Source: Actinomycetota bacterium (GTDB taxonomy: Bacteria; Actinomycetota; Humimicrobiia; Humimicrobiales; Humimicrobiaceae). From it: 26,606 nt of DNA. Each line of letters opens with the position of its first letter. The stretch's first letter is position 1. This document shows, one piece after another, positions 5,279 through 21,351 of this stretch. The translations under genes were made by a program, and so were the position numbers. The notes beneath the pieces were generated by a model. The model was not told the origin of the DNA. It saw nothing but the letters and a program-made list of their open reading frames with translations, and did no database searches. The stretch is taken from positions 1-26,606 of the forward strand of contig JADHVN010000003.1 in NCBI GenBank assembly GCA_016783995.1, written 5' to 3'.

Positions 5279-5280
5279 AA

Positions 5281-5709
5281 ATGAAAAATGCCAATAACTG
5301 GGAACCTAAAATAGTTACTTTTCTCTGTAACTGGTGTTCATATGCAGGCGCTGATCTGGCCGGAGTCTCGCGAATTCAATATCCACCCAATATACGGGTT
5401 ATTCGCGTGCCCTGTTCGGGAAGGGTGGACCCTTTCTATATTATCAAGGTATTACAAAACGGTATTGACGGGGTTTTAGTTTCTGGCTGTCATCCTGGAG
5501 ACTGCCATTATATCAGTGGGAATTTGATTGCTCGAAGAAAGTTTGCACTACTGAAAAGTTTCCTGGAATATATTGGGATTGAACCAGGCCGAGTACAGTT
5601 TTCATGGGTCTCAGCAGCGGAAGGCGGCCGCTTTGCTGATATTATTGAGAAAGTTACCAGCGAGGTAAAAAAATTGGGTCCGATTAGAAAAATGGTAAAA
5701 AGAAACTGA
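5281..5709 (+). CDS. mvhD: MvhD-like [2Fe-2S] subunit (copy 1)
   Basis: MvhD hands electrons from a hydrogenase or dehydrogenase to the flavin of HdrA. The 142-aa product has the family's full length and its cysteines: C16 and C19 in LCNWCSYAGAD, C45 in VPCSGRVDP, and C70/C75 in GCHPGDCHY. The gene starts two bases after the hdrA stop, so translation is likely coupled. In this neighbourhood, followed by Flx-like subunits rather than hydrogenase genes, it corresponds to FlxD of the FlxABCD-HdrABC complex. It is the most divergent of three MvhD copies in the window: it has LCNWC and CHPGDC, while the other two share FCCNWC and CHIGDC. Confidence 0.9.
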   Translation: MKNANNWEPKIVTFLCNWCSYAGADLAGVSRIQYPPNIRVIRVPCSGRVDPFYIIKVLQNGIDGVLVSGCHPGDCHYISGNLIARRKFALLKSFLEYIGIEPGRVQFSWVSAAEGGRFADIIEKVTSEVKKLGPIRKMVKRN

Positions 5710-5730
5710 CTATAATAAAGAAACATTAAA

Positions 5731-6723: not shown

Positions 6724-6735
6724 ATTGAGTTATAA

Positions 6736-7815
6736 ATGGAAAATGTAAAATTAAAGATTATTAAGAAGAAAAAAGTTTTAAGCTTACTGGATAGTTTAAG
6801 CAAAGAATACAATATCTTTATCCCGGTAGAGAAGAACAGTGATATTCGATTCTCTGAGTTCAAATCCGGACAGAATATTTCATGGGATTATCGAAATACA
6901 AAAATCTCACCCAAAGAAATACTATTTCCTCAAACAGAAATACTATTTTCTTTTGGAACAGAAACTGAGGTAAAACCTGAAGGCCCTACTCCTGGGGGAA
7001 AGGAATATTTGATTTTTGGTATCAGGCCTTGTGATGCTAAAGCTATTTCTCTACTGGATAAGGTCTTTGAGGGAGATGATTTTCAGGATCCTTACTATCT
7101 GAAGAAAAGAAAACAGGCAATTATTATCTCGCTAGCCTGCAACAAACCACAGATTGACTGTTTTTGTACTTCATTGAAAGGGAAACCAGACAATGAAGAA
7201 GGAGCGGATATTATTTTATTTGATCTGGGGGAGGATATCCTTGCCAAGCTGTTAACCAAGAAAGGCGAGAAATTTATTGAAAATTTAAGTAATTGGTTTA
7301 AAGAAGCTAAGAAATCCGATGTGGCTAAGAAGGATAAGCTCGTGGATTTAAGTTTAAAGAAAATTCGGTCTCAGGTTGACATTCAAAATATAAAAGAAAA
7401 ATTAGATAAGTCTTTTGATGCATCTTTCTGGAATGAAATTCATCAGAAATGTTTAGGTTGTGGCATTTGTACTTATCTTTGCCCTACCTGTCACTGTTTT
7501 GATATTACTGATGAAATAAATCCTGGAGCAGGGGATTCAGCTACGCCTGAAGGCAAAAGAGTGCGCTGCTGGGATTCTTGCATGTATCCATTGTTCACTT
7601 TACATGCATCCGGACATAACCCACGGCCGACTTATAAAGAAAGAATGCGGCAGAGAATTATGCACAAATTTAATTATTGTCCAGAAAATTTTAAGGAAAC
7701 ATTCTGTGTAGGTTGTGGCCGTTGTATTAGAAATTGTCCGGTAAATCTTGATTTGAGAGAAGTATTGGTATCGTTAATGTCGTTAGGGTCGTTGTGTGAA
7801 GATAAGAAGATTTAA
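6736..7815 (+). CDS. FlxB/AsrA-like ferredoxin-type subunit (sulfhydrogenase beta family)
   Basis: The 359-aa protein matches the 4Fe-4S subunit family of anaerobic sulfite reductase AsrA and sulfhydrogenase HydB. It has the central block FGIRPCDAKAISLLDKVF, followed by DPYYLKKR, and two C-terminal [4Fe-4S] motifs, CLGCGICTYLCP starting at C239 and CVGCGRCIRNCP starting at C324. Family role: it passes electrons between the flavin NAD(P)H subunit (next gene) and the rest of the complex. The gene starts 12 bp after its neighbour. The last 15 or so residues are encoded by short TCGTT repeats (7771-7797) and are probably not a conserved part of the protein. Confidence 0.8.
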   Translation: MENVKLKIIKKKKVLSLLDSLSKEYNIFIPVEKNSDIRFSEFKSGQNISWDYRNTKISPKEILFPQTEILFSFGTETEVKPEGPTPGGKEYLIFGIRPCDAKAISLLDKVFEGDDFQDPYYLKKRKQAIIISLACNKPQIDCFCTSLKGKPDNEEGADIILFDLGEDILAKLLTKKGEKFIENLSNWFKEAKKSDVAKKDKLVDLSLKKIRSQVDIQNIKEKLDKSFDASFWNEIHQKCLGCGICTYLCPTCHCFDITDEINPGAGDSATPEGKRVRCWDSCMYPLFTLHASGHNPRPTYKERMRQRIMHKFNYCPENFKETFCVGCGRCIRNCPVNLDLREVLVSLMSLGSLCEDKKI

Positions 7816-7841
7816 GGAGTTAGATTGTTGGAAGGAAGATC

Positions 7842-8687
7842 ATGAATAATCCGTATCTACCTATACCAGTAACAATAAAAAAGATTACTATTGAAAATGA
7901 AGCCAGGGATATTAAAACATTTGATCTGGTATTTAATGGTAAGAAAGACGCTGGGAAGTTTAAGTATACTTGTGGGCAGTTTGCAGAGATATCTATATTA
8001 GGTGTTGGTGAGGTACCCATTGGGATTGCTTCATCCCCTATGGATGAAGAGTTAGTGCAGTTCACTGTTAAAAAATATTCCACAGGTGTAGTTACTAGTG
8101 CTCTGCATAATCTTTGCCCAGGGAATATGATTGGTATAAGAGGTCCTTATGGGAATGGATTTCCTATGAAAGATTTTGAAGGAAGCAATCTTGTAATTGT
8201 AGGTGGAGGATTTGCTCTTACTACTTTAAGATCACTTACTAAATACATACTTCATGAAAAAAACAGAGCTCGTTTTAAAGATATCACTATACTCTATGGT
8301 GCACGTAGTCCCGGCGAACTTATTTATAAGTCGGAATTAAAACAGTGGGAAGAAAGAGAAGACATCAATGTCTACCTCACAGCGGACAGGGGAGATGAAA
8401 ACTGGAAAGGCCGTGTTGGATTGGTACCAAATGTATTAAGGGAGGTAGCGCCAAAGTCTGAGAACAGCATTATTCTTGTCTGTGGCCCTCTTCTCATGGT
8501 AAAGTACACTATGCTGCCAATATTGGACTTAGGCTTTAGGCCTGAGAAGATCTTTTTTTCTCTGGAGATGCGTATGAAATGCGGGATTGGTAAGTGTGGA
8601 AGATGCAATATTGGACCTAAATATGTGTGTAAAGATGGACCTGTATTTACTTATGAAGAATTGCAAGGATTACCACAAGAGTATTGA
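7842..8687 (+). CDS. flxA: FlxA/AsrB-like FAD and NAD(P)H-binding oxidoreductase
   Basis: This 281-aa ferredoxin-NADP-reductase-type flavoprotein would oxidise NAD(P)H for the upstream Hdr module. Visible parts are the FAD fold with PIGIASSP (59-66), the nucleotide-binding glycine run VIVGGGFALTTLR (118-130), the NAD-domain motif LVCGPLLMV (212-220), and a C-terminal [2Fe-2S] site with C247, C252, C255 and C263 (KCGIGKCGRC...YVC), as in AsrB and PyrK. The ATG at 7842 follows GGAAGG. It closes the hdrC-hdrA-mvhD-flxC-flxB-flxA block, whose content matches the FlxABCD-HdrABC NADH-oxidising complex described in sulfate reducers except for the missing HdrB. NADH versus NADPH cannot be told by eye. 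Confidence 0.82.
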   Translation: MNNPYLPIPVTIKKITIENEARDIKTFDLVFNGKKDAGKFKYTCGQFAEISILGVGEVPIGIASSPMDEELVQFTVKKYSTGVVTSALHNLCPGNMIGIRGPYGNGFPMKDFEGSNLVIVGGGFALTTLRSLTKYILHEKNRARFKDITILYGARSPGELIYKSELKQWEEREDINVYLTADRGDENWKGRVGLVPNVLREVAPKSENSIILVCGPLLMVKYTMLPILDLGFRPEKIFFSLEMRMKCGIGKCGRCNIGPKYVCKDGPVFTYEELQGLPQEY

Positions 8688-8717
8688 TGCGAGGATGCGA
8701 GGTGTGGGATGCAGGAT
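8686..8717 (+). repeat. Short GATGCGAG tandem repeat in the flxA - hdrA/nuoE gap
   Basis: GATGCGAG occurs at 8686-8693 and 8694-8701, and a related GATGCAGG at 8708-8715. It begins within the flxA stop codon region and makes the first ATG of the next gene (8709) part of the repeat, which argues that translation really starts further downstream. Confidence 0.5.
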
Positions 8718-9644
8718 AGAAAAGATAAAAAACAACGAGAGAATAACATGAATCATAAATCAGGCATCATGAATCGGAAGAAGGTTGGTGCAGCAATGGT
8801 CGTTGGTGGAGGGATTGGCGGCATGCAAGCTGCACTTGATCTTGCTGAGTCAGGGATAAAGGTATATTTGGTAGAGACAAAATCCTGTATTGGTGGAGTA
8901 ATGTCCCAGCTGGATAAGACCTTCCCTACCAATGATTGTGCCATGTGTACTATGGCTCCACGATTAGTTGAAGTCGGCCGTCACAAAGATATTGAAATAA
9001 TTACCTTAGCTGATATAGAAGATATTGAAGGTCAACCTGGTAATTTTACTGTAACTTTGAAAAAAAGACCGCGTTATATTGATGAAGAAAAATGCACCGG
9101 CTGTGCATTATGTGTAAATAATTGTCCTGTAAGAAATATAGTCTATACTGAACCGGAAAAGGAAGAGATAAAACTTTCTGATGAAGATTTACAAAGAGTA
9201 AGGGTAATAATAAAGAATTATAAAGATAAGAAGGGTACATTGGTGCCCGTGCTGCAAGATATTAGCAGCCAGTACAGATATTTACCTGCTGAAATATTAA
9301 GGTATATCGCTGTTGAACTAGGCTATCCATTGAGTCAGGTGTACAGGCTTGCAACATTTTATAATGCCTTTAGCCTGGAACCCCGGGGAAAATATTTAAT
9401 ATCTGTCTGTTTGGGTACTGCCTGCCATGTCAAAGGTGCTCCGAGTATTGTAGAAGTACTGGGAAGAGAACTTGGTATAAAACCAGGTGAAACTACTGAA
9501 GATATGAATTTTACTTTAGAGACAGTACGCTGTATTGGATGTTGCGGCCTGTCACCGGTTATGAAAATTAATGAAGATTTATATGGAAAAGTGACTCAGA
9601 AAAAAGTTCCCGGAATAATCAATGAATATAGGATTAAAACATAA
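8709..9644 (+). CDS. Fusion: N-terminal HdrA fragment plus NuoE-type [2Fe-2S] subunit
   Basis: Residues 25-141 are an HdrA N-terminus: GGGIGG at 33-38, then SQLDKTFPTNDCAMC, PRYIDEEKC and the ferredoxin motif C129-x2-C132-x2-C135-x3-C139-PV. Counting from the glycine run, it aligns with hdrA copy 1 without a gap and stops at the same CPV. From about residue 150 to 311 it is a NuoE/HndA/HydC subunit with the thioredoxin-like [2Fe-2S] ligands C234, C239, C275 and C279 (CLGTAC...CIGCC). Half a flavin fold cannot hold FAD alone, and the missing part of HdrA is the C-terminal portion of the gene at 14766. The frame is open throughout. Start is uncertain: ATG 8709 lies in a repeat, and ATG 8748 or 8769 better fits the HdrA start. 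First gene of an NADH module with hndB and nuoF. Confidence 0.85.
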   Translation: MQDRKDKKQRENNMNHKSGIMNRKKVGAAMVVGGGIGGMQAALDLAESGIKVYLVETKSCIGGVMSQLDKTFPTNDCAMCTMAPRLVEVGRHKDIEIITLADIEDIEGQPGNFTVTLKKRPRYIDEEKCTGCALCVNNCPVRNIVYTEPEKEEIKLSDEDLQRVRVIIKNYKDKKGTLVPVLQDISSQYRYLPAEILRYIAVELGYPLSQVYRLATFYNAFSLEPRGKYLISVCLGTACHVKGAPSIVEVLGRELGIKPGETTEDMNFTLETVRCIGCCGLSPVMKINEDLYGKVTQKKVPGIINEYRIKT

Positions 9645-9673
9645 TAATAAAATTAAAGGAGAGTGTGCCAGAA

Positions 9674-10057
9674 GTGCCAAGAATAAAAATTGAAGATTTA
9701 GATAAAATAAGTAAAAAAGTAAAAAGAACAGTTATTTTACGTGAAGGAGCCGGCAGGGCAAAAATTACTGTCCATATGGGAACCTGCGGTATATCTGCAG
9801 GCGCAAGGGAGATAATGAGTACGTTACTGGCAGAGATAGAAAAAAAGAATATCAAAGATATCATATTGACCACATCTGGTTGTGCCGGCTTATGCAGCAA
9901 GGAACCTATGGCAACAGTCGAATTAAAAGGAGAAACTCCGGTTAAATACATTGAACTCACGCCCGAGAAGATTAAGAAAATATTTAACGAGCATGTGCTT
10001 GGCGGCAAAATAGTCAAGGATTATGCATTGGCAAAAGGTAGTGAAAGAGTATTTTAA
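9674..10057 (+). CDS. hndB: HndB-like thioredoxin-fold [2Fe-2S] subunit
   Basis: This is a small ferredoxin of the kind found between the NuoE and NuoF subunits of NAD(P)-reducing and bifurcating hydrogenases. Cysteines expected for a [2Fe-2S] cluster are visible in MGTCGISAGA and SGCAGLCSKEP. The start is placed at GTG 9674, which gives the usual 'M-P-R-I-K...DL' opening, with AGGAG at 9657-9661; the GTG at 9665 is in frame but only three bases from that site. It sits 29 bp after the HdrA-NuoE gene and 11 bp before nuoF. Role inferred from family: it receives electrons from, or stabilises, NuoF. Confidence 0.8.
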   Translation: MPRIKIEDLDKISKKVKRTVILREGAGRAKITVHMGTCGISAGAREIMSTLLAEIEKKNIKDIILTTSGCAGLCSKEPMATVELKGETPVKYIELTPEKIKKIFNEHVLGGKIVKDYALAKGSERVF

Positions 10058-10068
10058 TTATTTAAATT

Positions 10069-11916
10069 ATGGATAATCAAAATATACAACCAATAAACGA
10101 GCAAATTGGCAAGCATTACAGGATGCATCTGATGCTTTGTGCAGGTACGGGTTGCGTGTCTAATAAATCATTCAAAATAAAAGAAGTTCTGGAAAAGGAA
10201 CTAAAAAAACAAAATTTACAAGATGAGGTGCTCGTAGTTATGACAGGTTGTAACGGCTTTTGTGCCTTAGGGCCTGTTATGGTGGTCAAACCTGACGGAA
10301 TTTTCTACCAACAGTTACAGGAAGATGATATTCCTCATTTAGTGGAGGAGCATTTCTTAAAAGGAAGGCCTGTAAAAAAATTGATGTATACCCCACCTGA
10401 AGAAAAAGAGCCGATCCCAAAAATGATGGAAATAGGGTTTTTTGCCCGCCAGAGGTTGATCGCTCTTAAGAATAGGGGGTTGATTGACCCGGAGAATATT
10501 GATGAATATATCGCAAGTGATGGATATAAAGCATTAGCGAAAGTATTGACTAAAATGACTCCTGTAGAAGTAATTGAAGAGGTAAAAAAATCAGGCCTTA
10601 GGGGTAGGGGCGGTGCCGGATTTCCAACCGGTTTAAAATGGGAATTATGCCATAAAGCAAAACCGAAAAGCAAAAAGCAAAATACAAAATATATTATATG
10701 TAATGCTGATGAAGGAGACCCCGGCGCATTTATGGATAGGAGCATAATCGAATCAGATCCCCATGGAGTATTGGAAGGTATGATAATAGGCGCTTATGCC
10801 ATCGGTGCAAATAATGGTTATATATATATCAGGGACGAGTATCCCCTTGCTATGGAAAGATTGGAACTGGCAATCAAACAAGCCAAAGATTACGGCCTGC
10901 TTGGTGAAAATATATTTGATACTGGCTTTAGTTTAGATATAAAGATTCAAAAAGGAGCTGGTGCTTTTGTATGCGGTGAGGAAACGTCGTTGATGGCTTC
11001 AATTGAAGGCAGGCCTCCTGAGCCAAGGCAAAGGCCACCATTCCCGACACAATCAGGACTTTGGGGAATGCCAACCAATATTAATAATGTAGAAACCTGG
11101 TCTACTGTACCAAGTATAATTAATAGGGGTGCTGAATGGTTTGCATCAATCGGAACTGAAAAAAGTAAAGGTACAAAAGTCTTTTCTTTAGTTGGAAAGA
11201 TAAATAATACTGGTTTGGTTGAAGTCCCTATGGGTACGACTTTAAGAGAGATAATTTATGATATCGGTGGTGGTATCCCTAACGGAAAAGAGTTAAAAGC
11301 TGTGCAAACAGGCGGTCCTTCGGGAGGATGCATCCCTAAAGAAATGCTTGATTTACCGATAGATTACGAACGATTAGCAGAAGTGGGTTCTATTATGGGT
11401 TCAGGGGGAATGATCGTACTTGATGAAGACAGCTGCATGATTGATATCGCGAAATATTTCTTGCAGTTTACCAATGACGAGTCCTGTGGAAAATGTAATT
11501 CTTGTCGTGAAGGAAGCGAAGCTCTTCTTGAAATTTTAGATAAAATATCAAATGGCAAAGGTGAAGAAGGAGATATAGAATTCCTTGAAGAGTTAGGGCA
11601 GGCAATAAAAGACGCTTCCTTATGCGGACTTGGACAAACACTTCCCAATCCTGTTCTTTCTACATTAAGACATTTTAGAGATGAATATGAACAACATATA
11701 AAACATAAAAAATGCCCGGCAGGAGTATGCAAAGCTCTGATCCAGTATTTTGTAGATGAGGAGAAATGTACAGGATGCACGCTGTGTGCAAAAAATTGTC
11801 CACAGGATGCTATTAGTGGTAAAAGAAAAGAACCACATACTATAGATCAGGATAAATGCATCAAATGCAATATGTGTTATGAAGTATGTAAGTTCAACGC
11901 TATACAGAGGAAATAG
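10069..11916 (+). CDS. nuoF: NuoF/HndC/HydB-type NADH-binding flavoprotein with extra ferredoxin domains
   Basis: This is the NADH-oxidising (or NAD-reducing) FMN subunit. Order of domains: an N-terminal thioredoxin-like [2Fe-2S] domain (CAGTGC...GCNGFC, residues 25-70); the FMN/NAD fold with GLRGRGGAGFPTGLKW from residue 176, NADEGDPGAFMDR and GAGAFVCGEETSL; an SLBB-like part; the NuoF [4Fe-4S] site C473-x2-C476-x2-C479 in ESCGKCNSCREG with a later cysteine; and two C-terminal [4Fe-4S] motifs starting at C567 and C597. At 615 aa this is the HndC/HydB layout of trimeric or tetrameric bifurcating hydrogenases, not the shorter complex-I NuoF. A lysine-rich insert (KAKPKSKKQNTK, near residue 200) lies just before YIICNADEG. 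No H-cluster hydrogenase gene accompanies it. Confidence 0.93.
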   Translation: MDNQNIQPINEQIGKHYRMHLMLCAGTGCVSNKSFKIKEVLEKELKKQNLQDEVLVVMTGCNGFCALGPVMVVKPDGIFYQQLQEDDIPHLVEEHFLKGRPVKKLMYTPPEEKEPIPKMMEIGFFARQRLIALKNRGLIDPENIDEYIASDGYKALAKVLTKMTPVEVIEEVKKSGLRGRGGAGFPTGLKWELCHKAKPKSKKQNTKYIICNADEGDPGAFMDRSIIESDPHGVLEGMIIGAYAIGANNGYIYIRDEYPLAMERLELAIKQAKDYGLLGENIFDTGFSLDIKIQKGAGAFVCGEETSLMASIEGRPPEPRQRPPFPTQSGLWGMPTNINNVETWSTVPSIINRGAEWFASIGTEKSKGTKVFSLVGKINNTGLVEVPMGTTLREIIYDIGGGIPNGKELKAVQTGGPSGGCIPKEMLDLPIDYERLAEVGSIMGSGGMIVLDEDSCMIDIAKYFLQFTNDESCGKCNSCREGSEALLEILDKISNGKGEEGDIEFLEELGQAIKDASLCGLGQTLPNPVLSTLRHFRDEYEQHIKHKKCPAGVCKALIQYFVDEEKCTGCTLCAKNCPQDAISGKRKEPHTIDQDKCIKCNMCYEVCKFNAIQRK

Positions 11917-11962
11917 AAAACATTTTACATTAGAAAGATAAAAGTTTATCAGTAAAAAAGAA

Positions 11963-12319
11963 ATGACACTTAAAGAGATAAAAAAAATACTTAACGCAGA
12001 GGTAATTGTAGGTTCTGATGTCTTGAATATAGATATAAAAATGGGCTGTGGATGTGACCTGATGAGCGATGTTTTGGCCTTTGTAAAGTCAGATTCCCTT
12101 CTTTTAACAGGACTGACAAACCTACAGGTTATCCGAACAGTGGAGATGTCTGATATAAAAGCAGTATGTTTTGTCAGAGGAAAAAAGCCGGATAGGGAGA
12201 CTATTGAACTTGCAAAAAGTAAAAATATCCCTTTGCTATTGACAGATTTCCCCTTGTTTGAAGCATGTGGGAAATTATATAAAGGGGGACTGGCTGGGTG
12301 CTCTGAAATAAATGAATAG
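11963..12319 (+). CDS. DRTGG-domain protein (first copy)
   Basis: The 118-aa protein resembles the small stand-alone DRTGG-domain proteins often encoded beside bifurcating hydrogenase genes. Conserved-looking parts are the N-terminal VIVGSDVLNIDI, the central MGCGCDLMSDVLAFV and the C-terminal NIPLLLTDFPLFEACGKLY. A second copy with the same pattern lies at 13225. No catalytic residues or ligand can be named; the family is thought to bind small ligands, and its function here is unknown. It starts 46 bp after nuoF and overlaps the next gene by eight bases, so it belongs to the operon. The Shine-Dalgarno sequence is weak. Confidence 0.7.
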   Translation: MTLKEIKKILNAEVIVGSDVLNIDIKMGCGCDLMSDVLAFVKSDSLLLTGLTNLQVIRTVEMSDIKAVCFVRGKKPDRETIELAKSKNIPLLLTDFPLFEACGKLYKGGLAGCSEINE

Positions 12320-13247
12320 AGAGATTACTAAGGTTCAAGAACTTGCTTATGAATTAACGGTTGAACAGGCAATGACAAGAGATATTGTTCAAGTTCATCC
12401 TAAAAATCGTATGGGTGAATTAAGGGAAATATTAAGGGTCAATCGTATTTCAGGAGCACCGGTTGTAGATAAAGATAAATTAGTTGGTATAGTGAGTATT
12501 GAGGATTTTATTAAATGTCTGTCAGATGGAGAAATAGATTCTTTGGTAGAGGATAAGATGACAAGAAAGGTAAAAACTTTGAACGCAGATGAACCACTTA
12601 TTCATGCTGTTAACAAATTTAATAGGCATGGTTTTGGCCGTTTTCCCGTAATTGAACGGAGTAGCGGAAAGTTGGTAGGCGTTATTGCCAAGGGCGATAT
12701 TATAAAGACCTTGCTTAAAGAACTAGAGATTAATTATCATGAGGAAGAGATTCATCGCTACCGTGCTTCGCATATATTTAGCGATATAATTGCTGATAAA
12801 ACCACTCTTATTTTTGAATACAATATTGCCGGCCAGGATTTCAAGCATGCAGGAGAATCTGCAAGCAGTCTTAAAAAAAGTTTAGCCAGATTAGGTATAA
12901 CACCGCAAATTCTTCGTAGGATAGCCATTGCAACCTATGAGGCGGAGATGAATATTGTTATTTTTACTTCCGGAGGTTATATTACTGCTTATGTCAAACC
13001 AAATAAAATCAGGGTTGAGGCAGTAGACTCCGGTCCTGGTATTCCTGATGTTAAAAAGGCAATGAAGCCTGGCTTCTCCACTGCTCCAACTTCAGTACAG
13101 GAGCTGGGTTTTGGGGCTGGAATGGGTCTTCCGAATATTAAAAAGTGTGCAGATAAGATGAATATTAACTCTGTAGTTGGGAAAGGAACAAAATTAGAAG
13201 TAATTATCTATACCGGGGGGGGAAATGAAACTTTACCAGATAGTTAA
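12312..13247 (+). CDS. CBS-pair protein with anti-sigma/HATPase domain
   Basis: Two CBS repeats (about residues 14-70 and 80-138: MTRDIVQVHP, GAPVVDKDKLVGIVSIEDF; DKMTRKVKTL, RFPVIERSSGKLVGVIAKGD) are followed by a GHKL ATP-binding domain of the anti-sigma/RsbW type, with N214 (N box), VDSGPGIPD at 238-246 and the glycine-rich lid GFGAGMGLPN at 266-275. CBS pairs usually sense adenosine nucleotides, so the protein could link energy state to phosphorylation or partner binding. It overlaps its neighbours on both sides. An eight-G run (13215-13222) in its last codons acts as ribosome binding site for the following gene. The target of the ATPase domain is unknown; the other GHKL protein (14311) may be a partner. 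Confidence 0.82.
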   Translation: MNREITKVQELAYELTVEQAMTRDIVQVHPKNRMGELREILRVNRISGAPVVDKDKLVGIVSIEDFIKCLSDGEIDSLVEDKMTRKVKTLNADEPLIHAVNKFNRHGFGRFPVIERSSGKLVGVIAKGDIIKTLLKELEINYHEEEIHRYRASHIFSDIIADKTTLIFEYNIAGQDFKHAGESASSLKKSLARLGITPQILRRIAIATYEAEMNIVIFTSGGYITAYVKPNKIRVEAVDSGPGIPDVKKAMKPGFSTAPTSVQELGFGAGMGLPNIKKCADKMNINSVVGKGTKLEVIIYTGGGNETLPDS

Positions 13248-13563
13248 AGAGTTAGGGCTCGAAGTCAAATCTAAGGTTTTTAATTTGGATAAAGAAGTAA
13301 ATGGTGGTTATGCGAGTGATTTGTTAAGTGATGTTATAGCAAACGCAAAAAAAGATAATATCTGGATTACTTTACAAATTCATCAGAATATTGTTGGAGT
13401 AGCCGCATTAAAAGAACTAACGGGAATTATAATAGTTAATGGAAGAAAACCTGAAGAGGAAGCCTTAAAAAAAGCAGAGGAAGAAAATATACCAATTATG
13501 GTAACAGAACTTCCGGCTTTTAAGATAATTGGAAAATTATACAGGATGTTAGGCGGATGTTAA
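13225..13563 (+). CDS. DRTGG-domain protein (second copy)
   Basis: This is a 112-aa paralogue of the gene at 11963: it shares the pattern '...GGYASDLLSDVIANAKKDN...' against 'GCGCDLMSDVLAFVKSD' and ends with 'NIPIMVTELPAFKIIGKLY' against 'NIPLLLTDFPLFEACGKLY'. It lacks the GCGC cysteines of the first copy, so metal or cluster binding there, if any, is not shared. The ATG lies inside the end of the CBS gene behind a G8 tract, and its end overlaps the PHP gene by seven bases. Role unknown; the pair may form a heterodimeric regulatory unit. Confidence 0.65.
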   Translation: MKLYQIVKELGLEVKSKVFNLDKEVNGGYASDLLSDVIANAKKDNIWITLQIHQNIVGVAALKELTGIIIVNGRKPEEEALKKAEEENIPIMVTELPAFKIIGKLYRMLGGC

Positions 13564-14306
13564 GAGAATTTAAAGCAGATTTACATATTCATACTGCTCT
13601 TTCGCCCTGTGCGGACGAGGAGATGTTTCCAAAAAGAATAATTGAACAGGCAAAAATGAATAATTTAGATATAGTGGGGATCTGTGACCATAACTCAGCA
13701 GAAAATGTCGTAGCAATCCAGAAAATAGGACAGAGAGAAGATATAGCTGTTATTGGTGGGATTGAGGCTACATCGCAGGAGGAGGTCCATATCCTTACAC
13801 TTTTTGACAATGTTAAAGAGTTGTTTGAGTTCCAGGATATTATTTATGAGAAATTATCAGGTCTTAATGATGAGAAGGTTTTTGGAAGACAACTTATAAT
13901 CAATGAAGATAACGAAGTCGTAGGTTCCAATAGCAGGCTTTTGATCGGAGCAACATCACTGTCTTTACAGGAAATAGTCCAGGCAATCTGTTCTCTGGGA
14001 GGGCTTACAATTGCCTCCCATATTGATAGAGAGAGTTTTAGTATTATTTCTCAACTGGGATTTGTCCCTGAAGGATTACTGCTGGATGCTCTGGAGCTGT
14101 CTCCAAATTACAAGCAACAGACAACCTGTGGCACAGACAGGCAGGTAAATCCGGAACTTTATGGTTTTTCACTGGTTACTTTTTCTGATGCCCATTTTTT
14201 AAAAGATATCGGTAAAAGTTTTACCATCTTTCTTATGGAAGAAGCAAGCATAGGGGAGATTAAGAAAGCTTTATCAGGAGAAGATGGAAGAAAGGTGATG
14301 ATTTAG
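13557..14306 (+). CDS. PHP-domain metal-dependent phosphoesterase
   Basis: The 249-aa protein has the metal-binding set of the PHP family: DLHIHT with H10 and H12, D44-H45 (CDHNS), E70 (GGIEA), H78, H155 (ASHIDRE) and D211-x-H213 (SDAHF). These residues normally hold two or three metal ions for hydrolysis of phosphate esters such as nucleotides or phosphorylated small molecules. The substrate cannot be read from sequence. The start overlaps the DRTGG gene, and a GHKL ATPase gene follows after four bases. PHP genes of this kind are recurrent neighbours of HydABC-type hydrogenase genes, which supports a role in controlling the complex rather than in DNA metabolism. Confidence 0.8.
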   Translation: MLREFKADLHIHTALSPCADEEMFPKRIIEQAKMNNLDIVGICDHNSAENVVAIQKIGQREDIAVIGGIEATSQEEVHILTLFDNVKELFEFQDIIYEKLSGLNDEKVFGRQLIINEDNEVVGSNSRLLIGATSLSLQEIVQAICSLGGLTIASHIDRESFSIISQLGFVPEGLLLDALELSPNYKQQTTCGTDRQVNPELYGFSLVTFSDAHFLKDIGKSFTIFLMEEASIGEIKKALSGEDGRKVMI

Positions 14307-14310
14307 CCAG

Positions 14311-14769
14311 ATGGAGGATTTGTCTTTACATATTTTAGATATAGTAGAAAACTCAATCAAAGCTTGTGCCAAAAAGATTGAAGTAAAAATTATTGAGGAT
14401 AAAAAAAAGGATCTACTTACTATTGAAATAATCGATGACGGAGAAGGTATGGATGAGAAGACATTAAAAGATGTACTGGACCCATTTTTTACAACGAAGA
14501 ACACAAGAAAAGTCGGATTGGGCCTTCCTCTTCTTGCCCAGTCGGCAGAAGAAAGTGGAGGAAATATTAAAATAGAATCAAAGCCAGGTCAGGGGACAAA
14601 GGTAAAGGCCACATTCGGCTATAGCCATATTGACCGCAGACCTTTAGGTGATATTCATGAATCGTTAAAAGTTTTAATTACTGCAAATCCTGATATAAAT
14701 TTTATTTATGAATATCAAGAAGATGGTATAAGTTATCATCTGGATACAATAAAAGGAATTAAAAAATGA
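14311..14769 (+). CDS. Stand-alone GHKL/HATPase domain protein
   Basis: The 152-aa protein has a histidine-kinase-type ATP-binding domain: E13-N14 (N box, IVENSIKA), DDGEGM at 42-47, PFFTTK at 58-63 and the lid GLGLPLLAQSAEESGG near 69-84. There is no sensor domain, no dimerisation/phospho-acceptor histidine domain and no membrane segment, so it is not a complete sensor kinase. It may act on a partner protein such as the CBS-HATPase or DRTGG products. Its stop codon overlaps the ATG of the NuoG-HdrA gene (ATGA, 14766-14769), a tight translational coupling that ties it to the redox subunits. Confidence 0.78.
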   Translation: MEDLSLHILDIVENSIKACAKKIEVKIIEDKKKDLLTIEIIDDGEGMDEKTLKDVLDPFFTTKNTRKVGLGLPLLAQSAEESGGNIKIESKPGQGTKVKATFGYSHIDRRPLGDIHESLKVLITANPDINFIYEYQEDGISYHLDTIKGIKK

Positions 14770-17700
14770 TATCACTAACTATAAATAATAAAAAAATTAA
14801 AGTAGAGGAAGGATTAACTGTTCTTAAAGCTGCTGATAAAGCTGGAATAAAAATTCCGACTCTATGTTCACACAAAGCACTTTCACCCTACGGTGCCTGC
14901 AGAGTCTGTCTTGTTGAAATAAGCCGAAATGGAAAGCCTCCGGAGATTCAGGCATCCTGCACCTATCCGGTAATGGAAGGTCTGGTGATTCAGACTGATT
15001 CAGAAAAGGTTATAAAGACAAGAAAAATAATGATAGAGTTGCTGATGGCCAGATGCCCGGATTCAGAAGAGATTAAGAATCTTGCTAAAGAATTAGGTGT
15101 GAAGAAAACAAGAATCAAGCCCAAAGATAAGGACTGCATTCTTTGTGGTCTATGTGTGAGGATGTGTGAGGAGCGAATGGGAAGGGCGGCCATAAGTTTT
15201 TCAGGTCGTGGCCCAAGACGAGAAGTAACCTCACCTTTTGGCAAACCTTCTGAGGTATGTCAGGCTTGCGGTGCCTGTGATTTTATCTGTCCCACAGGAA
15301 AAATCAGAATTACTGAAGTGAGCAAAAACGAATCTCGACCTATACCCTTTGAACATAATATGGGTTTAAATTCCAGGCCGGCTGTATATATTCCCTATCC
15401 ACAGGCAATACCCAACAAAGCAACTATTGACAGCAGATATTGTGTCCATATGCTTAGTGATGAATGTGAAGTGTGTAAGGAATTTTGTGAAGCAGGGGCT
15501 ATTGATTATAACCAAAAAGAAGAAAAGCTTGATTTAAAGGTTGGTTCAGTAATTTTTTCTCCTGGCTACGATATTTTTGATGCAGGGGCAAAGTTAGAAT
15601 ATGGTTATTTAAACTATTCCAATGTTATAAATGCACTCGAATTTGAAAGAATATTAAGCACTTCCGGCCCTTACGAAGGTAAGGTTTTGAGGCCCTCAGA
15701 TAAACTTGTACCGAAAAGAATCGCTTTTATTCAATGCGTTGGCTCACGGGATACAGAAAGAGATTACTGTTCTTCAATATGTTGTATGTATGCCACCAAG
15801 GAAGCGATTATTGCTAAAGAGCATGCCGGCGAGGAATTAGAATGCCATATCTTTTTTATGGATCTGCGTGCTTTCGGTAAAGGTTTCGATGCTTATTATG
15901 AAAGAGCAAAAGAACTTGGAGTAAAATATATAAGATGCCGCCCCTCATCTGTAGAAGAAATACAGGAGACAAAAAATCTTAAGATTAATTATGTAACCGA
16001 TGACGGGAAGGTGTTGACTGAACAATATGATTTGGTAGTTTTATCTGTTGGCATGCAGCCGCCAGAACTAGCCAAAAAGCTGAACAGTAAATTTGGAATT
16101 AAACTTAATGAGCATGGGTTCTGCTGGACCGATACTTTTAAGCCAGTTGAATCCAGCAAAGAGGGAATATTTGTCTGCGGGCCATTTACCGAGCCCAAAG
16201 ATATACCGGAAACAGTGACTCAAGCAGGTGGTGCAGCATCTAAGGTTTTATCTCTTCTTTCTGAAGTGCGAGGAACTTTGATTAAGACTAAAGAATATCC
16301 TCCAGAAAGAGATGTTACCGGACAGGCTCCGCGTATTGGTGTATTTATCTGTCATTGCGGGTCAAACATTGCTGGTGTAGTAGATGTTCTCCAGGTGGTA
16401 GAATATGCAAAAACCTTACCTGATGTGGTTTACGCTGAAAATAATCTTTATACCTGTTCAAATGATACCCAGGAGAGGATTAAAAAATTGATTGGGGAGC
16501 ATAATCTCAACCGGGTGATTGTTGCTTCCTGCACTCCCAGAACGCATGAACCCCTGTTCCGGAATACCGTCCGCGAGGCAGAACTCAATCCCTACTTGTT
16601 TGAAATGGCTAATATTCGTGACCAGTGTTCCTGGGTGCATATGCATGAGCCAGAAAAAGCTACTCAAAAGTCAAAAGATCTGGTGCGGATGGCCGTATCC
16701 AAGGTGCGTTTATTAGAACCGTTACAGAGGAGGAAAGTCAGTGTAAATCACAGCGCTCTGGTTATTGGTGGAGGTCTAAGTGGTATAAGCGCAGCCTTGG
16801 AGATAGCGGAGCAGGGTTATGAGGTACATCTGGTAGAGAAAGAGAAACAATTAGGTGGGAATCTAAAGCGTATACATTTTCTATTCAATGGAGAAAAACC
16901 GCAGGAACAGCTGACTTCTTTAATTGAACGTGTTAAGAAAAATGATAAGATTCACCTTTATACTGATACAAAGATATTAAATATCGAAGGGTTTTTTGGT
17001 AATTTCAAGACAACAATAGAACCAGGCAATGCAAAGCAGAAAACAGGGAGTAGCAGCAAGAAAAACGAGATAAACCATGGTGTTGTAATTGTTGCCACCG
17101 GTGCTCGAGAATACAAACCAACTGAATATCTCTATGGTGAAGACGAAAAAGTAATGACTCAACTCGAACTGGAAAAATGGTTAGCGGTTAGCGCTGAGCA
17201 CAGGAAACCAAGCATTGATACACAAGCGCTGAAGACAGTGGTTATGATACAGTGTGTTGGTTCAAGAGATGATGAGCGGCCTTATTGTAGTCGAGTATGC
17301 TGTTCTGAAGCGGTCAAGAATGCTATAAAAATAAAAGAGATTAACCCACGAACGAATGTATTTGTTCTCTATAGGGATATAAGGACCTATGGATTTAGAG
17401 AAAGCTATTACTCAAAAGCGCGCCAGATGGGAGTAATTTTCATTCGGTATGAGGAGGATAAAAAACCGGAGGTAGTAAAACAAAATGGTGTGTTAAAAGT
17501 TTCCTTAGTTGATCTAATACTTAATATGCCGGTTACTATCAATGCTGACCTTTTAGTATTATCTGCGGCAACTATTCCTCACCCAGAAAATAAAGACCTT
17601 GCTCAAATGTTAAAAATATCATTAGATCAAAATAATTTCTTTTTAGAAGCACATATGAAACTTCGTCCTGTTGATTTTGCTACAGAAGGGGTCTTTTTGT

Positions 17701-18062
17701 GCGGCCTTGCCCATTCAGCAAAATCAATTGAAGAAAGTATCGCTCAGGCTTGTGGTGCGGCAGCACGAGCAAGTACTATACTTTCTAAAGAAACTATAGA
17801 ATTAGAGGCAAATATATCCCAGGTAATAGATGAAAATTGTGATGGTTGTGCATACTGTATAGACCCATGTCCATATAAAGCTATAACCTTAATTGAGTAT
17901 ATGAAGGATGGAGCAATAAAGAAAACTGTTGAAGTGGATGAATCTGCTTGTAAAGGATGTGGTGTTTGTCAAGCTACCTGTCCTAAAATGGGTATATTTG
18001 TTAGAGGATTTAAACTTGAACAAATATCATCTATGGTTAATGCTGCATTGGAGGTATCCTAA
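14766..18062 (+). CDS. Fusion: NuoG/HydA-like iron-sulfur domain plus HdrA lacking its N-terminus
   Basis: Residues 1-180 are a NuoG/HydA-type N-terminus: [2Fe-2S] ligands C34, C45, C48 and C65, then two ferredoxin motifs starting at C124 and C165. The His-Cys3 cluster site usual in NuoG is absent; the stretch reads ARCPDSEEIKNLAKELGV instead. From P192 (PIPFEHNMGL, matching residue 118 onward of hdrA copy 1) the protein is HdrA: IQCVGSRDTERDYCSSICC, CHCGSN, CTPRTHEP, a second flavin-type fold with GGGLSG near 668, and C-terminal [4Fe-4S] motifs from C1025 and C1062. The first GxGxxG flavin motif is missing here and is found instead on the HdrA-NuoE protein. It should carry electrons from NuoEF to the bifurcating FAD. 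Its last codons contain GGAGGT, the ribosome binding site of mvhD copy 2. Confidence 0.9.
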   Translation: MISLTINNKKIKVEEGLTVLKAADKAGIKIPTLCSHKALSPYGACRVCLVEISRNGKPPEIQASCTYPVMEGLVIQTDSEKVIKTRKIMIELLMARCPDSEEIKNLAKELGVKKTRIKPKDKDCILCGLCVRMCEERMGRAAISFSGRGPRREVTSPFGKPSEVCQACGACDFICPTGKIRITEVSKNESRPIPFEHNMGLNSRPAVYIPYPQAIPNKATIDSRYCVHMLSDECEVCKEFCEAGAIDYNQKEEKLDLKVGSVIFSPGYDIFDAGAKLEYGYLNYSNVINALEFERILSTSGPYEGKVLRPSDKLVPKRIAFIQCVGSRDTERDYCSSICCMYATKEAIIAKEHAGEELECHIFFMDLRAFGKGFDAYYERAKELGVKYIRCRPSSVEEIQETKNLKINYVTDDGKVLTEQYDLVVLSVGMQPPELAKKLNSKFGIKLNEHGFCWTDTFKPVESSKEGIFVCGPFTEPKDIPETVTQAGGAASKVLSLLSEVRGTLIKTKEYPPERDVTGQAPRIGVFICHCGSNIAGVVDVLQVVEYAKTLPDVVYAENNLYTCSNDTQERIKKLIGEHNLNRVIVASCTPRTHEPLFRNTVREAELNPYLFEMANIRDQCSWVHMHEPEKATQKSKDLVRMAVSKVRLLEPLQRRKVSVNHSALVIGGGLSGISAALEIAEQGYEVHLVEKEKQLGGNLKRIHFLFNGEKPQEQLTSLIERVKKNDKIHLYTDTKILNIEGFFGNFKTTIEPGNAKQKTGSSSKKNEINHGVVIVATGAREYKPTEYLYGEDEKVMTQLELEKWLAVSAEHRKPSIDTQALKTVVMIQCVGSRDDERPYCSRVCCSEAVKNAIKIKEINPRTNVFVLYRDIRTYGFRESYYSKARQMGVIFIRYEEDKKPEVVKQNGVLKVSLVDLILNMPVTINADLLVLSAATIPHPENKDLAQMLKISLDQNNFFLEAHMKLRPVDFATEGVFLCGLAHSAKSIEESIAQACGAAARASTILSKETIELEANISQVIDENCDGCAYCIDPCPYKAITLIEYMKDGAIKKTVEVDESACKGCGVCQATCPKMGIFVRGFKLEQISSMVNAALEVS

Positions 18063-18064
18063 AA

Positions 18065-18487
18065 ATGAGCAATACTGAAGAAAAATTCGAGCCATTGATT
18101 ATCGGATTCTGCTGCAACTGGTGTTCCTATGCCGGAGCCGATTTAGCTGGGACATCGAGATTGCAGTATCCTACTAATATTCGTATAATTAGAGTAATGT
18201 GTTCAGGGATGATTCATCCAAATTTAGTGATAGATGCCTTAACAAAAGGTGCTGATGGTGTCATAATATGTGGGTGTCATATCGGGGATTGCCATTATTT
18301 AGAGGGTAATTTAAAAGCGGAAAAGAGAGCAGATGCAATCAGGCTTATGCTTGAGGATTTTGGAATAGAAGATGAGAGATTCAGACTGGAATGGATTTCA
18401 GCTTCAGAGGGTCCTAGGTTTGCTCAGGTAATGACTGAATTTACGGCAGCAGTAAAAAAATTAGGACCCAGTCCATTTAAAACGTGA
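18065..18487 (+). CDS. mvhD: MvhD-like [2Fe-2S] subunit (copy 2)
   Basis: The 140-aa MvhD has FCCNWCSYAGAD, VMCSGMIHP and CGCHIGDCHY, the full cysteine set. It begins two bases after the NuoG-HdrA stop, with its Shine-Dalgarno GGAGGT inside that gene (18050-18055). The place directly behind an HdrA and upstream of hydrogenase genes fits its known job of linking a NiFe hydrogenase to HdrA. It is clearly closer to copy 3 (21353) than to copy 1: FRLEW(I/V)SASEGP and the ending LGPSP(F/Y)KT are shared, showing that the two arose by duplication of this cassette. Confidence 0.9.
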   Translation: MSNTEEKFEPLIIGFCCNWCSYAGADLAGTSRLQYPTNIRIIRVMCSGMIHPNLVIDALTKGADGVIICGCHIGDCHYLEGNLKAEKRADAIRLMLEDFGIEDERFRLEWISASEGPRFAQVMTEFTAAVKKLGPSPFKT

Positions 18488-18759: not shown

Positions 18760-18822
18760 GCAATCTTTCTTTAAACATTGGTAGATAATAAAAGTAAAAG
18801 TATGAGAGGGAGGTCAAATACT

Positions 18823-21351
18823 ATGATAGGGTCTGTACTTATTGTTGGAGCAGGTCCTGCCGGAATGCTCGCGAGTGCCGAATTATTAAACCAAGGATTT
18901 AAAGTTATTCTTGTTGAAGAAAAGCCTACGATTGGTGGTAAAATGGCGCAAATTGATAAAATGTTTCCTTCAAATGAATGTTCCACATGTACAATACTGC
19001 CACGCATGCTTGAACTTACCAGTAATCCAAATATAACAATCGTTACCTTTGCAGAAGTTAAAAGTATTGACGGAAAGGCAGGGGATTTCAGAGCTAAAGT
19101 AGTCAAAAACCCAAGATATGTTGATCCGATTAAGTGTACTGCCTGCACTGATTGTTTTCCTGTTTGTCCTGTTGGAGGAATTCCTATGGAATTTAACTTT
19201 GGCAGGGGAGCTTCTAAGGCAATTTCTTTTTATTCACCTTTCCCACCGAGAAAAGCATTGATTAACCCTGAAAAATGCACTTATATTCTTGAAGGTAAGT
19301 GTGGTGATAAAGAAACCCCGCCATGTGTTGAAGCATGTAAGCCGGAGGCAATTGTATTTAACCAGAAACCTGTAGAAGTAGAATTTAACGTAGGAGCTGT
19401 TATTTTAGCCACAGGTATGGATGAAATGAAAACAAAATCATTAGAAAGGTTTGGATACAGAAAGTTTTCAAATGTACTTACCGCGCTTGAGTATGAACGT
19501 CTGCTTTCAGGCCTTGGCCCGACTGGCGGTGTTATAAAACGTGACGATAAAAAAGAACCAAAATCTGTTGCGTGGTATGTGCTTAATAATCCTTCGCCTG
19601 TTGGTTTTATGACTGCCGTGGCAGAGACCATGGGCACTATTGAAAGAAACCCTGATGCTTCTGTTTCTATTTTTTATGAAGATATGAATCTGGTAAGAGA
19701 CGATTATAATGATTTTTACCTGAAGGCAAAAGAATCTAAAATTAAATTTATTAAAATAGATTCTGTAAAAATTGCTGAAGGAAAAGACGGGAATATTGAT
19801 ATTTTTTATGATAAGGAAACTTTTAATACAGAGATGTTTGTTATTGTTCCGCCTTATGCTCCTACTGAAAATACGCGTTCTCTTGCAGAAAAAGCAGGTT
19901 TAGAACTGGATCAATGGGGATTTTTTAGTAAAAAATCAGAGAATTCTCATCCAATTTACACATTAAAAGAAGGAATTTTCGTATGCGGAAGCGCACAAGA
20001 GCCAAAGGGAATAGATGATGCAATCATTCAGGCATGTTCTGCAGCATCGCATGCGGCTGCATTGTTAGCCCCTTCCCGCGGCAAGGAAATGACAGCTCTG
20101 CCTGAAAAAGATATTTTGCCTGTAAAAGTTGATGATGAACCGGCAATTCTCGTAGTTATATGCCGCTGTGGCATAAATATATCAGGGCTTCTCAATATTG
20201 ATGAACTTGTGAACTATACAGCATCACTTCCTTATGTGAAACACGTAGAATTAACTCCTTTTGGATGTGACGGTGTGAAAGTCAGGGAACTATTAAAAAT
20301 AAAAAAATTCAACAGAATTGTAATAGGCGCATGTTCGCCAAAAACCCATGAAGACCTTTTTTTTCTTCATACAGAAATGGGTGGTTTAAACCGTTATTTA
20401 ATGGAAATTGTAAACTTGCGTAACCATTGCACCTGGGTGCATTCAAAAAATAAGGAAAAATCCACGGAAAAAGCAAAGACACTTATGAGAATGGGAATAA
20501 ACCGCGCTGCATTACTTGAGTCTTTAAATGATATTCACGTGCCGGTAACACCTACCTGCCTTGTAATCGGCGGGACACCAAGTGGCATTGCCTGTGCTTT
20601 AAAACTTGGACAGGCAGGTCTTAATGTTTATCTGGTTGAGGAAGAAGTAGACCTTGGCAAAATAAAAGAAAACGATAGCAAGTTTGTGAAAAATTTAATA
20701 GATGAGTTAAATAAAAATGAGAAAGTAAAGATTTATACAAGGGCTAAAGTAGGAAGAATTGAAGGTTTTGTAGGGAATTTCAGAGCTGAAATAGTGAAGT
20801 CAAGTGGGAAGAAAAATGTAAATATTGGTTGTATTGTTGTTGCAACCTGTATTGATATGAGAGCAGAATCAGAAAACGACGATTTTGAGAATGACTTACT
20901 TCTTCAAAGAGATGAAAAGAATTTCTTTGTTGGAATGCTTGGTATTTTAAACCCTCTTGACTTTAATACTGATGGGGTATTTAGATGTGGGCCTGCACGA
21001 AAGAAAATGGGTATTCCTGATTCTATTATAGATGGCGAAGGTGCTGCATCGCGAGTTGCAGGAGTTATTTCAAAAAAAGAACTGGTTAAATCTCCTGCGA
21101 TTTCATTTGTGGTAGACGAGTATTGTGATGGTTGTGCATACTGCATAGATCCGTGTCCTGCCAAAGCAATAACACTTATTGAATATATGCAGGAGGATGG
21201 CAGTATAAAAAAGACAGTTGAAGTCAATGAAGCAATCTGTCGCGGATGTGGCGTCTGTGTGGCAACATGCCCCAAAAAGGGTATTTATGTCAAACATTTT
21301 AAGCCTGAATATTTTGAAGAAATGATTAAATCTGTTATGGAGGTTTCATAA
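18823..21351 (+). CDS. Divergent HdrA-like protein (copy 3)
   Basis: The 842-aa HdrA relative begins MIGSVLIVGAGPAG. The ATG at 18823 is chosen because GAGGGAGG (18806-18813) lies nine bases upstream; an in-frame TTG at 18778 lacks such a site. Kept: the first flavin fold, DKMFPSNECSTC, the ferredoxin motif CTACTDCFPVCP, CRCGIN, CSPKTHED, and two C-terminal [4Fe-4S] motifs (CDGCAYCIDPCP, CRGCGVCVATCP). Lost: the IQCVGSR...YCSxICC cysteines, replaced by AWYVLNNPSPVGFM, and much of the second flavin domain, whose glycine motif is GGTPSG and whose CVGSR...CC segment is deleted. It may therefore bind only one flavin and relay electrons rather than bifurcate. Its C-terminus is very like that of the NuoG-HdrA protein. 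Last codons carry the ribosome binding site of mvhD copy 3. Confidence 0.85.
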   Translation: MIGSVLIVGAGPAGMLASAELLNQGFKVILVEEKPTIGGKMAQIDKMFPSNECSTCTILPRMLELTSNPNITIVTFAEVKSIDGKAGDFRAKVVKNPRYVDPIKCTACTDCFPVCPVGGIPMEFNFGRGASKAISFYSPFPPRKALINPEKCTYILEGKCGDKETPPCVEACKPEAIVFNQKPVEVEFNVGAVILATGMDEMKTKSLERFGYRKFSNVLTALEYERLLSGLGPTGGVIKRDDKKEPKSVAWYVLNNPSPVGFMTAVAETMGTIERNPDASVSIFYEDMNLVRDDYNDFYLKAKESKIKFIKIDSVKIAEGKDGNIDIFYDKETFNTEMFVIVPPYAPTENTRSLAEKAGLELDQWGFFSKKSENSHPIYTLKEGIFVCGSAQEPKGIDDAIIQACSAASHAAALLAPSRGKEMTALPEKDILPVKVDDEPAILVVICRCGINISGLLNIDELVNYTASLPYVKHVELTPFGCDGVKVRELLKIKKFNRIVIGACSPKTHEDLFFLHTEMGGLNRYLMEIVNLRNHCTWVHSKNKEKSTEKAKTLMRMGINRAALLESLNDIHVPVTPTCLVIGGTPSGIACALKLGQAGLNVYLVEEEVDLGKIKENDSKFVKNLIDELNKNEKVKIYTRAKVGRIEGFVGNFRAEIVKSSGKKNVNIGCIVVATCIDMRAESENDDFENDLLLQRDEKNFFVGMLGILNPLDFNTDGVFRCGPARKKMGIPDSIIDGEGAASRVAGVISKKELVKSPAISFVVDEYCDGCAYCIDPCPAKAITLIEYMQEDGSIKKTVEVNEAICRGCGVCVATCPKKGIYVKHFKPEYFEEMIKSVMEVS

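Follow-up and report, generated by a model that had tools for sequence, protein, structure and literature searches.

In the stretch of DNA analysed here (the window, 26,606 nucleotides of contig JADHVN010000003.1 from the actinomycetotal assembly GCA_016783995.1, family Humimicrobiaceae), one HdrA is encoded not as a single polypeptide but by two genes lying 6.2 kb apart, each half being fused to a subunit of the NADH-dehydrogenase type. The alignments support the view that this HdrA has been split into two genes around an NADH module. It is likely that the two half-proteins come together again as one composite HdrA, to whose inserted ferredoxin a NuoE-NuoF-NuoG module of the Bfu type is predicted to be connected. 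All of the features described below are located on the forward (+) strand and are given in window coordinates.

The split HdrA and the position of the cut

The first gene (8709 to 9644; alignment, Pfam and profile) encodes a 311-aa HdrA(N-half)-NuoE fusion, in which residues 25-141 (8781 to 9131) are the first 117 residues of HdrA and residues 166-308 are NuoE as judged by alignment and PF01257, the thioredoxin-type [2Fe-2S] domain of this BfuC-like part extending from 9174 to 9641. The second (14766 to 18062; alignment and profile) encodes a 1098-aa NuoG(N)-HdrA(C-half) fusion, which begins with a NuoG/HydA-type N-terminal Fe-S part (residues 1-191, 14766 to 15338) and continues with the other 907 residues of HdrA (residues 192-1098, 15339 to 18061), comprising the rest of the first thioredoxin reductase-type (TrxR) domain, which binds flavin adenine dinucleotide (FAD), an N-terminal-type Fe-S domain, a second TrxR domain and a C-terminal ferredoxin. 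An earlier note on this DNA had placed residues 25-141 at 8781-9131 and residue 192 from 15339, and both placements are correct.

An intact HdrA encoded at 2207 to 5278 served as the comparison sequence. An ungapped alignment pairs residues 30-142 of HdrA-NuoE with residues 6-118 of this copy, and NuoG-HdrA takes up the alignment at HdrA residue 118 (its own residue 192) and carries it to near the C-terminus. Consistent with that, HdrA-NuoE matches positions 141-256 of the HdrA2 model NF040770 (whole-protein E 1.4e-46), and the best stretch of NuoG-HdrA (E 1.7e-258) begins at the very next model position and covers 257-562; the intact HdrA spans positions 139-562 in one stretch. The alignment and the consecutive model positions confirm the proposal of the earlier note that one HdrA is divided over two genes. 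Its description of the break as clean and complementary is borne out in one respect only: the halves are complementary along the profile, but motif 1 is not cleanly lost from the second chain, as a CxxCxxCxxxCP motif at the NuoG end (C165-C175) is located about where HdrA motif 1 would be, and the local alignment of NuoG-HdrA extends weakly, with gaps, through the NuoG stretch upstream of residue 192. NuoG thus brings its own Cys motif to the junction, with HdrA motif 1 residing on the NuoE chain and the NuoG motif preceding HdrA motif 2 on the other.

Residues were mapped onto the HdrA of Methanothermococcus (Protein Data Bank (PDB) entry 5odc). The N-half carries the GxGxxG of the FAD-binding Rossmann fold, a DCAMC loop, the equivalents of Cys194 and Cys197, and ferredoxin motif 1 (C129, C132, C135 and C139, at 9093 to 9125, for Cys246, 249, 252 and 256). 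The C-half carries motif 2 (C226, C234, C237 and C241, at 15441 to 15488), the equivalents of Cys386, Cys399, Cys403 and Cys404, and the signature of the bifurcating FAD, namely Glu294 (15645 to 15647) for E356 and Lys345 (15798 to 15800) for K409. From this distribution it follows that the cut falls within the inserted ferredoxin (in its turn an insert of the FAD domain of HdrA) and between the two Cys motifs of this ferredoxin, one of which is found on the NuoE chain and the other on the NuoG chain. According to passages of PMC9012536, the inserted ferredoxin is the outlet towards free ferredoxin in methanogens, and Cys197 ligates the N-terminal Fe-S cluster that belongs to the partner copy of HdrA; the bifurcating FAD is stated to be held by K409 and E356 in parts of PMC12054007 and PMC9430772.

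These residues are retained well beyond the window, which is included in the following counts of 45 N-halves and 34 C-halves. The GxGxxG is present in 43 of the 45 N-halves, the two exceptions being due to a contig end (L035) and to masked bases (L015), and motif 1 is present in all 45. By alignment, all 34 C-halves retain E356, K409, C386, C399, C403, C404 and the cysteines of motif 2, so that the marks of a TrxR-type FAD domain (GxGxxG, E356, K409) are present, distributed over both halves; in the N-terminal-type domain C529 and C531 are kept in 33/34 and C564 and C589 in 32/34. None of the 34 C-half chains has an N-half motif of its own. In a comparison of four segments across 34 loci, HdrA-N shows the strongest conservation (mean distance 0.374, versus 0.551 for NuoE), and its distances track those of HdrA-C best (r 0.645), although the difference from NuoG (0.601) and NuoE (0.538) is weak. 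Judging from the retained motifs and these distances, the N-half is under strong constraint.

Recurrence of the split

A protein search with HdrA-NuoE gave 6464 matches among 7997 scored candidates, and the best 120 of these cover 85-99% of the query at 64-94% identity. With NuoG-HdrA, 7365 of 7998 candidates matched; among the best 120, 114 join NuoG to the middle of HdrA without the N-half, five have the N-half without NuoG (and GltD instead), and one has the HdrA middle only. Near relatives of the window protein among the matches listed come from an Actinobacteria metagenome-assembled genome (MAG; 92%) and from Candidatus Hydromicrobium (84-86%).

A scan of genome contigs, which is not a census, yielded at least 80 loci that were fetched and read. 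The N-half is found beside NuoE in 44 of 80 fetched loci, being fused to it in 35 and encoded by a stand-alone gene in nine; the NuoE fusion is thus not required. In 33 of these 44 loci a NuoG-HdrA lacking the N-half is encoded on the same fetched DNA, several copies being shortened by a contig end. For four of the other 11 a whole-genome search located a full-length NuoG-HdrA elsewhere (L006, L007, L017, L040), and for three more a partial one, truncated at contig ends in L032 and L056 and present as an 875-residue frame in L015. The N-half beside NuoE, fused or stand-alone, therefore co-occurs with NuoG-HdrA in 40 of the 44 loci or their genomes, with some of the partner genes cut by contig ends; the earlier note had made its reading depend on the co-occurrence of the two fusions. 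N-truncated HdrA and HdrA-NuoE are widespread and not unique to the window.

Going by their titles, the loci are distributed over Neomarinimicrobiota, Cloacimonadota, KSB1, Bacteroidetes, Ignavibacteria, Acidobacteria, Gemmatimonadales, Aminicenantes, Spirochaetes, Planctomycetes, Stahlbacteria, TA06, Bipolaricaulota, Fibrobacterota, Fermentibacteraceae, Sumerlaeia, Desulfobacterales, other Deltaproteobacteria and Dehalococcoidia, plus one archaeal MAG; the split cluster L025 is on a contig of the uncultured archaeon LFW-68_2. Phylum samples of 151 and 99 genomes, in which only part of the candidates was scored in many genomes so that absences are not counted, gave the N-half and NuoE in one match in 2 of the 99. 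At three loci, NuoF frames of 1031-1110 aa with a C-terminal GltD adjoin the split HdrA (L019 at 10479, L011 at 4058, L034 at 10858), which places both kinds of NAD(P)H module in one cluster.

Nor is the cut confined to one type of HdrA, as a second type has it at the same position. Type I HdrA, which has its own N-terminal Fe-S domain, is divided in L150 and L162-L166 into an N frame of 287-311 residues and a NuoG-HdrA(C) of 587-598 residues, and the two halves are on one contig in all six clusters having the C-half. In five of the six, hdrC and hdrB are located upstream (the contig of L150 ends there); on the DNA read, MvhD follows in five, L166 being the cluster in which none was seen, and both hydrogenase subunits, MvhG and MvhA, in four. 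Regulators are present in L162, L164 and L165, and none were seen in L150, L163 or L166. The gene order of L162, which is hdrC, hdrB, hdrA(N), regulators, nuoE, hndB, nuoF, nuoG-hdrA(C), mvhD, mvhG, mvhA, amounts to an NADH operon inside an hdrCBA-mvhDGA operon. An additional cluster, L149, has the N-half with HdrB and HdrC, its contig ending past nuoF. The type I C-halves form one clade (support 100/100).

The nine stand-alone N-halves, all on loci titled Desulfobacterales, Desulfobacteraceae or Deltaproteobacteria, are genes of about 127-133 codons that end after motif 1, and in 9/9 a TGA is present exactly at the codon for Cys197, which in the window is the TGT of Cys80 (8946 to 8948). An 18-base hairpin located 18 bases past the start of the TGA codon is identical in all nine; among the 36 Cys-coding N-half genes (window included) all seven pairs are found in three, the AGGU loop in two and both in none. 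A selenocysteine tRNA scored above the cut-off in six of the nine genomes; in control genomes 14/14 matched at a loose E-value and 5/14 were above the cut-off. As the folding z-scores of the hairpin region against codon shuffles are not significant (-0.05 to -0.97), the case for a hairpin resembling a selenocysteine insertion sequence (SECIS) is based on its base-by-base invariance, and the stand-alone N-halves are probably selenoproteins. Selenocysteine-containing HdrA is known in bacteria and archaea according to portions of PMC1794560, PMC2702500 and PMC12054007.

One-chain relatives and the tree

Five proteins of 1515-1524 aa (P0153, P0155, P0164, P0184, P0185) hold both HdrA halves in one chain and carry GltD inside the same ferredoxin loop. 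Their identity to the window is 89-92% in the N-half and 84-92% in the HdrA block that follows (92% in both for P0153), and the window groups with them on the C-half tree with a support of 100/100. The window itself has NuoE, NuoF and NuoG in place of the GltD-in-ferredoxin of type III HdrA, which is present in its P0153-type sisters. Of the 55 one-chain HdrAs in the fetched loci, 22 have an insert at this point, 21 of them with 460-561 residues matching GltD and one with 295 residues (L069). The GltD start motif is found 36 residues past the N-block in 21/21 one-chain proteins with an insert of more than 400 residues, and at this spacing the GltD junction falls between the NuoEFG cut and motif 2, a few dozen residues downstream of the former.

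A second C-half tree, which omits the long-branch row win_T (a third HdrA of the window), requires at least 15 changes between split and one-chain forms. A single clade of all split HdrAs was rejected (approximately unbiased test on this C-half tree, p 7e-74). The tree being unrooted, the changes may be either repeated cuts or repeated re-joinings. The reading of the earlier note as a split of one HdrA into two genes around an NADH module is supported by the profile positions, the one-chain relatives, the co-occurrence in 40/44 and the second HdrA type being split alike. With about equal weight for and against, the inserted ferredoxin of HdrA may be a general evolutionary socket that has repeatedly taken up NAD(P)H dehydrogenases, either as GltD within the chain or with HdrA cut around an entire operon for NuoEFG. 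Where HdrA is cut, two polypeptides would together supply one FAD, two [4Fe-4S] clusters and a Cys or Sec ligand acting in trans, with the flavin mononucleotide (FMN) of Bfu and the FAD of HdrA as two bifurcating sites in series.

Genetic context in the window

Between the two fusion genes are those of HndB, NuoF and five small proteins of the regulator type. The first is a [2Fe-2S] subunit (9665 to 10057) with a weak match to PF01257, which is presumably HndB. It is followed by the BfuB-like NuoF (10069 to 11916), which from Pfam, profile and Cys positions has an N-terminal [2Fe-2S] domain, an FMN/NADH domain, SLBB and a C-terminal 2[4Fe-4S] domain. At the level of domains, this NuoF with extra N- and C-terminal Fe-S domains, together with NuoE, has the composition of Bfu (PF01257, PF01512, PF10589, Fer4 and Cys positions). 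The regulator-type genes encode a small protein without a Pfam match at 1e-5, taken to be DRTGG-like (11963 to 12319), a CBS-HATPase regulator (12312 to 13247; Pfam), a second small protein known as an open reading frame and likewise assumed to be DRTGG-like (13225 to 13563), a PHP-domain protein (13557 to 14306; Pfam) and an HATPase (14311 to 14769; Pfam). NF040763 is matched only at residues 2-184 of the 1098 of NuoG-HdrA, and the H-cluster domain of HydABC is thus missing.

Downstream are MvhD (18065 to 18487), the likely site of electron entry to the C-terminal ferredoxin of HdrA, whose label is not profile-based (the sister MvhD at 5281 matches PF02662), an MvhG-type hydrogenase small subunit (22011 to 22937; PF01058) and an MvhA-type [NiFe]-hydrogenase large subunit (23017 to 24459). 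The nickel site of [NiFe]-hydrogenases is marked by the motifs L1 (CGxC) and L2 (DPCxxCxxH), and MvhA has both, as SICGVC and DPCLSCSTH. A third, strongly diverged HdrA of 857 aa (18778-21351; end branch 2.4), from which part of the Cys set is missing, is preceded by one MvhD gene and followed by another. The genes at 1553-2140 and 2207-8687 encode an HdrC-like protein, the intact HdrA, MvhD and AsrA/AsrB-like (sulfhydrogenase beta/gamma) subunits, and form a second Hdr set with an NAD-binding partner. The open reading frame at 2-865 presumably encodes an IS110-type transposase.

Proposed mechanism and alternatives

In related complexes NuoE and NuoG adjoin each other, so that the HdrA halves fused to them would bring the two ferredoxin motifs face to face and make the FAD domain whole again. 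One FAD and both clusters of a single ferredoxin would then be common to the two chains, and the Fe-S cluster in the N-terminal-type domain of the NuoG chain would have C80 of the NuoE chain as a ligand, in the way that Cys197 acts from one HdrA copy to the other in the methanogen enzyme. Electrons of H2 would pass from MvhAG via MvhD to the FAD of HdrA, which would exchange them with NAD+ and ferredoxin through the composite ferredoxin, NuoG, NuoE and NuoF, a route replacing free ferredoxin at this port. The predicted net reaction is most likely that of a reversible H2:NAD+,ferredoxin oxidoreductase, similar to HydABC but with a [NiFe] hydrogenase. We infer that one FAD would be built from both chains and would be bifurcating.

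It has to be noted that several observations weigh against such a composite HdrA. No HdrB was found in the window (best tblastn E 0.13), so that there is no evident acceptor of high potential with which HdrA could truly bifurcate, and in the second TrxR domain the E and K equivalents are kept in only 25/34 and 23/34. For four of the 44 loci (L005, L024, L027, L035) a NuoG-HdrA partner was not found in the genome; their contigs stop at nuoF or at most about 3.2 kb from it, and in relatives the partner lies about 3 kb on. In L015 (also G001:C1) the halves are far apart on one chromosome, at about 302 kb and 1016 kb, and one operon is therefore not required. In L036 the C-half is itself in two frames at 13837-17110, a NuoG-HdrAm of 588 aa and an HdrAx-HdrA2nd of 567 aa. 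AlphaFold models of the single chains have a mean predicted local distance difference test (pLDDT) of 64.8 and 63.5, with low values for the split ferredoxin and equally low ones for the unsplit C-terminal ferredoxin (1014-1098); since the latter is predicted as badly, single-chain structure was dropped as a test of incompleteness. The top structural matches of the NuoG-HdrA model are the HdrA entries 5odh and 5odc.

The lack of HdrB in the window also speaks for an alternative in which the composite HdrA is a mere electron wire, its FAD linking the hydrogenase to the NuoEFG (Bfu) core and bifurcation occurring only at the FMN of NuoF. NuoE and NuoF do have the domains of a Bfu core, and section 5 of PMC9304861 proposes that such a core bifurcates at the FMN of NuoF and its clusters. 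This alternative appears rather unlikely, because 34/34 C-halves keep E356 and K409, by which a bifurcating flavin of HdrA is proposed to be recognised, and HdrB is encoded beside the HdrA N-half in six of seven type I clusters (L149 and L162-L166, with L150 ending there). An improbable alternative is that each half has become a domain of its own with a new role, HdrA-N serving as a ferredoxin or docking arm of NuoE and the C-half having lost its first FAD, with no site rebuilt. It would account for the NuoG motif at the junction, for the fusion of each half to a different subunit and for the unlinked halves of L015, but it does not fit with the retention of GxGxxG and FAD-side residues on both chains, with the TGA and hairpin at the Cys197 site of the nine stand-alone N-halves, or with the lack of an own N-half in the C-half chains (0/34) and the presence of both halves in one chain in relatives.

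It is very improbable that the N-half completes other HdrA proteins of the cell and not NuoG-HdrA. Candidates are available in the window, namely the intact HdrA at 2207 and the divergent one at 18778, but these copies have their own N-half, the distance correlation is best with HdrA-C, and type I clusters pair the halves locally. An assembly chimaera or a decayed gene has next to no probability, and the former was rejected: the near-complete coverage of the query by the best 120 HdrA-NuoE matches, the 114 of the best 120 NuoG-HdrA matches lacking the N-half, the recurrence of the same fusions in many proteins and in loci of many phyla, and the strong conservation all speak against it. The reassembly of the two half-proteins into one composite HdrA wired to the NuoEFG module is thus the preferred explanation.

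Comparison with known systems

If the halves do reassemble, two gene products would jointly form a bifurcating flavin site, and each of them would be tied to its own subunit of the NADH dehydrogenase. This would explain in structural terms why no electrons could be lost to free ferredoxin at this port. Modules would also be exchangeable at one site in a natural series, from none through GltD to NuoEFG. There is a warning here for annotation as well: in MAGs, neither an N-truncated HdrA nor a “NuoE with an FAD domain” is a broken gene, and nine of the N-halves described above are hidden by a TGA.

The earlier note knew of no described example. For HdrA split by NuoEFG this agrees with searches of open-licence papers, which showed none, but an NAD(P)H domain of the GltD/NfnB type in the HdrA ferredoxin domain has been published, as type III HdrA (in the relevant parts of PMC12054007) and as HdrA9-11 of anaerobic methanotrophic archaea group 1 (ANME-1) and the Moorella protein (in those of PMC9012536 and PMC9430772). 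NADH oxidation by the Moorella HdrA enzyme is quoted in PMC9430772 as 190 U/mg. What these proteins share with the window is an NAD(P)H module within that part of HdrA which comprises ferredoxin and TrxR; as described there, they are one chain with GltD, whereas the window has separate NuoE, NuoF and NuoG, HdrA in two genes and a cut closer to motif 1. A published one-line report of an insert within hdrA, in a paper that also has a selenocysteine HdrA, refers to a single gene, and the passages concerned mention neither NuoEFG nor a split. HdrL of Desulfobacterium autotrophicum, an Hdr/glutamate synthase fusion, resembles the window in being of the HdrA type with an NADH-binding region, in adjoining MvhD and in containing selenocysteine, but the passages of PMC2702500 concerned describe no NuoEFG and no split.

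The methanogen HdrABC-MvhAGD complex (PDB 5odc) is similar in its HdrA residues, MvhD and MvhAG, and differs in its single-chain HdrA, its open ferredoxin port and the lack of an NADH module. The electron-bifurcating [FeFe] hydrogenase HydABC has nuoE-, nuoF- and nuoG-like genes in common with the window, in which CBS, PHP and HATPase genes, typical of hyd operons, adjoin them; it differs by the H-cluster domain of HydA, which is missing in the window and in whose place HdrA-C is found. Within the Bfu family, it is the Bam-Bfu complex (BamEFGHI) that is most comparable, as a BfuABC-like NuoG/NuoF/NuoE module works there with a module of the HdrA type and a comparable series of Bfu and HdrA has been proposed (PMC9304861); section 5 of that paper does not describe HdrA halves on BfuC and BfuA. 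If the reading given here is true, the split HdrA would offer a direct way to ask which flavin bifurcates when Bfu and HdrA share a complex, as they do in Bam-Bfu.

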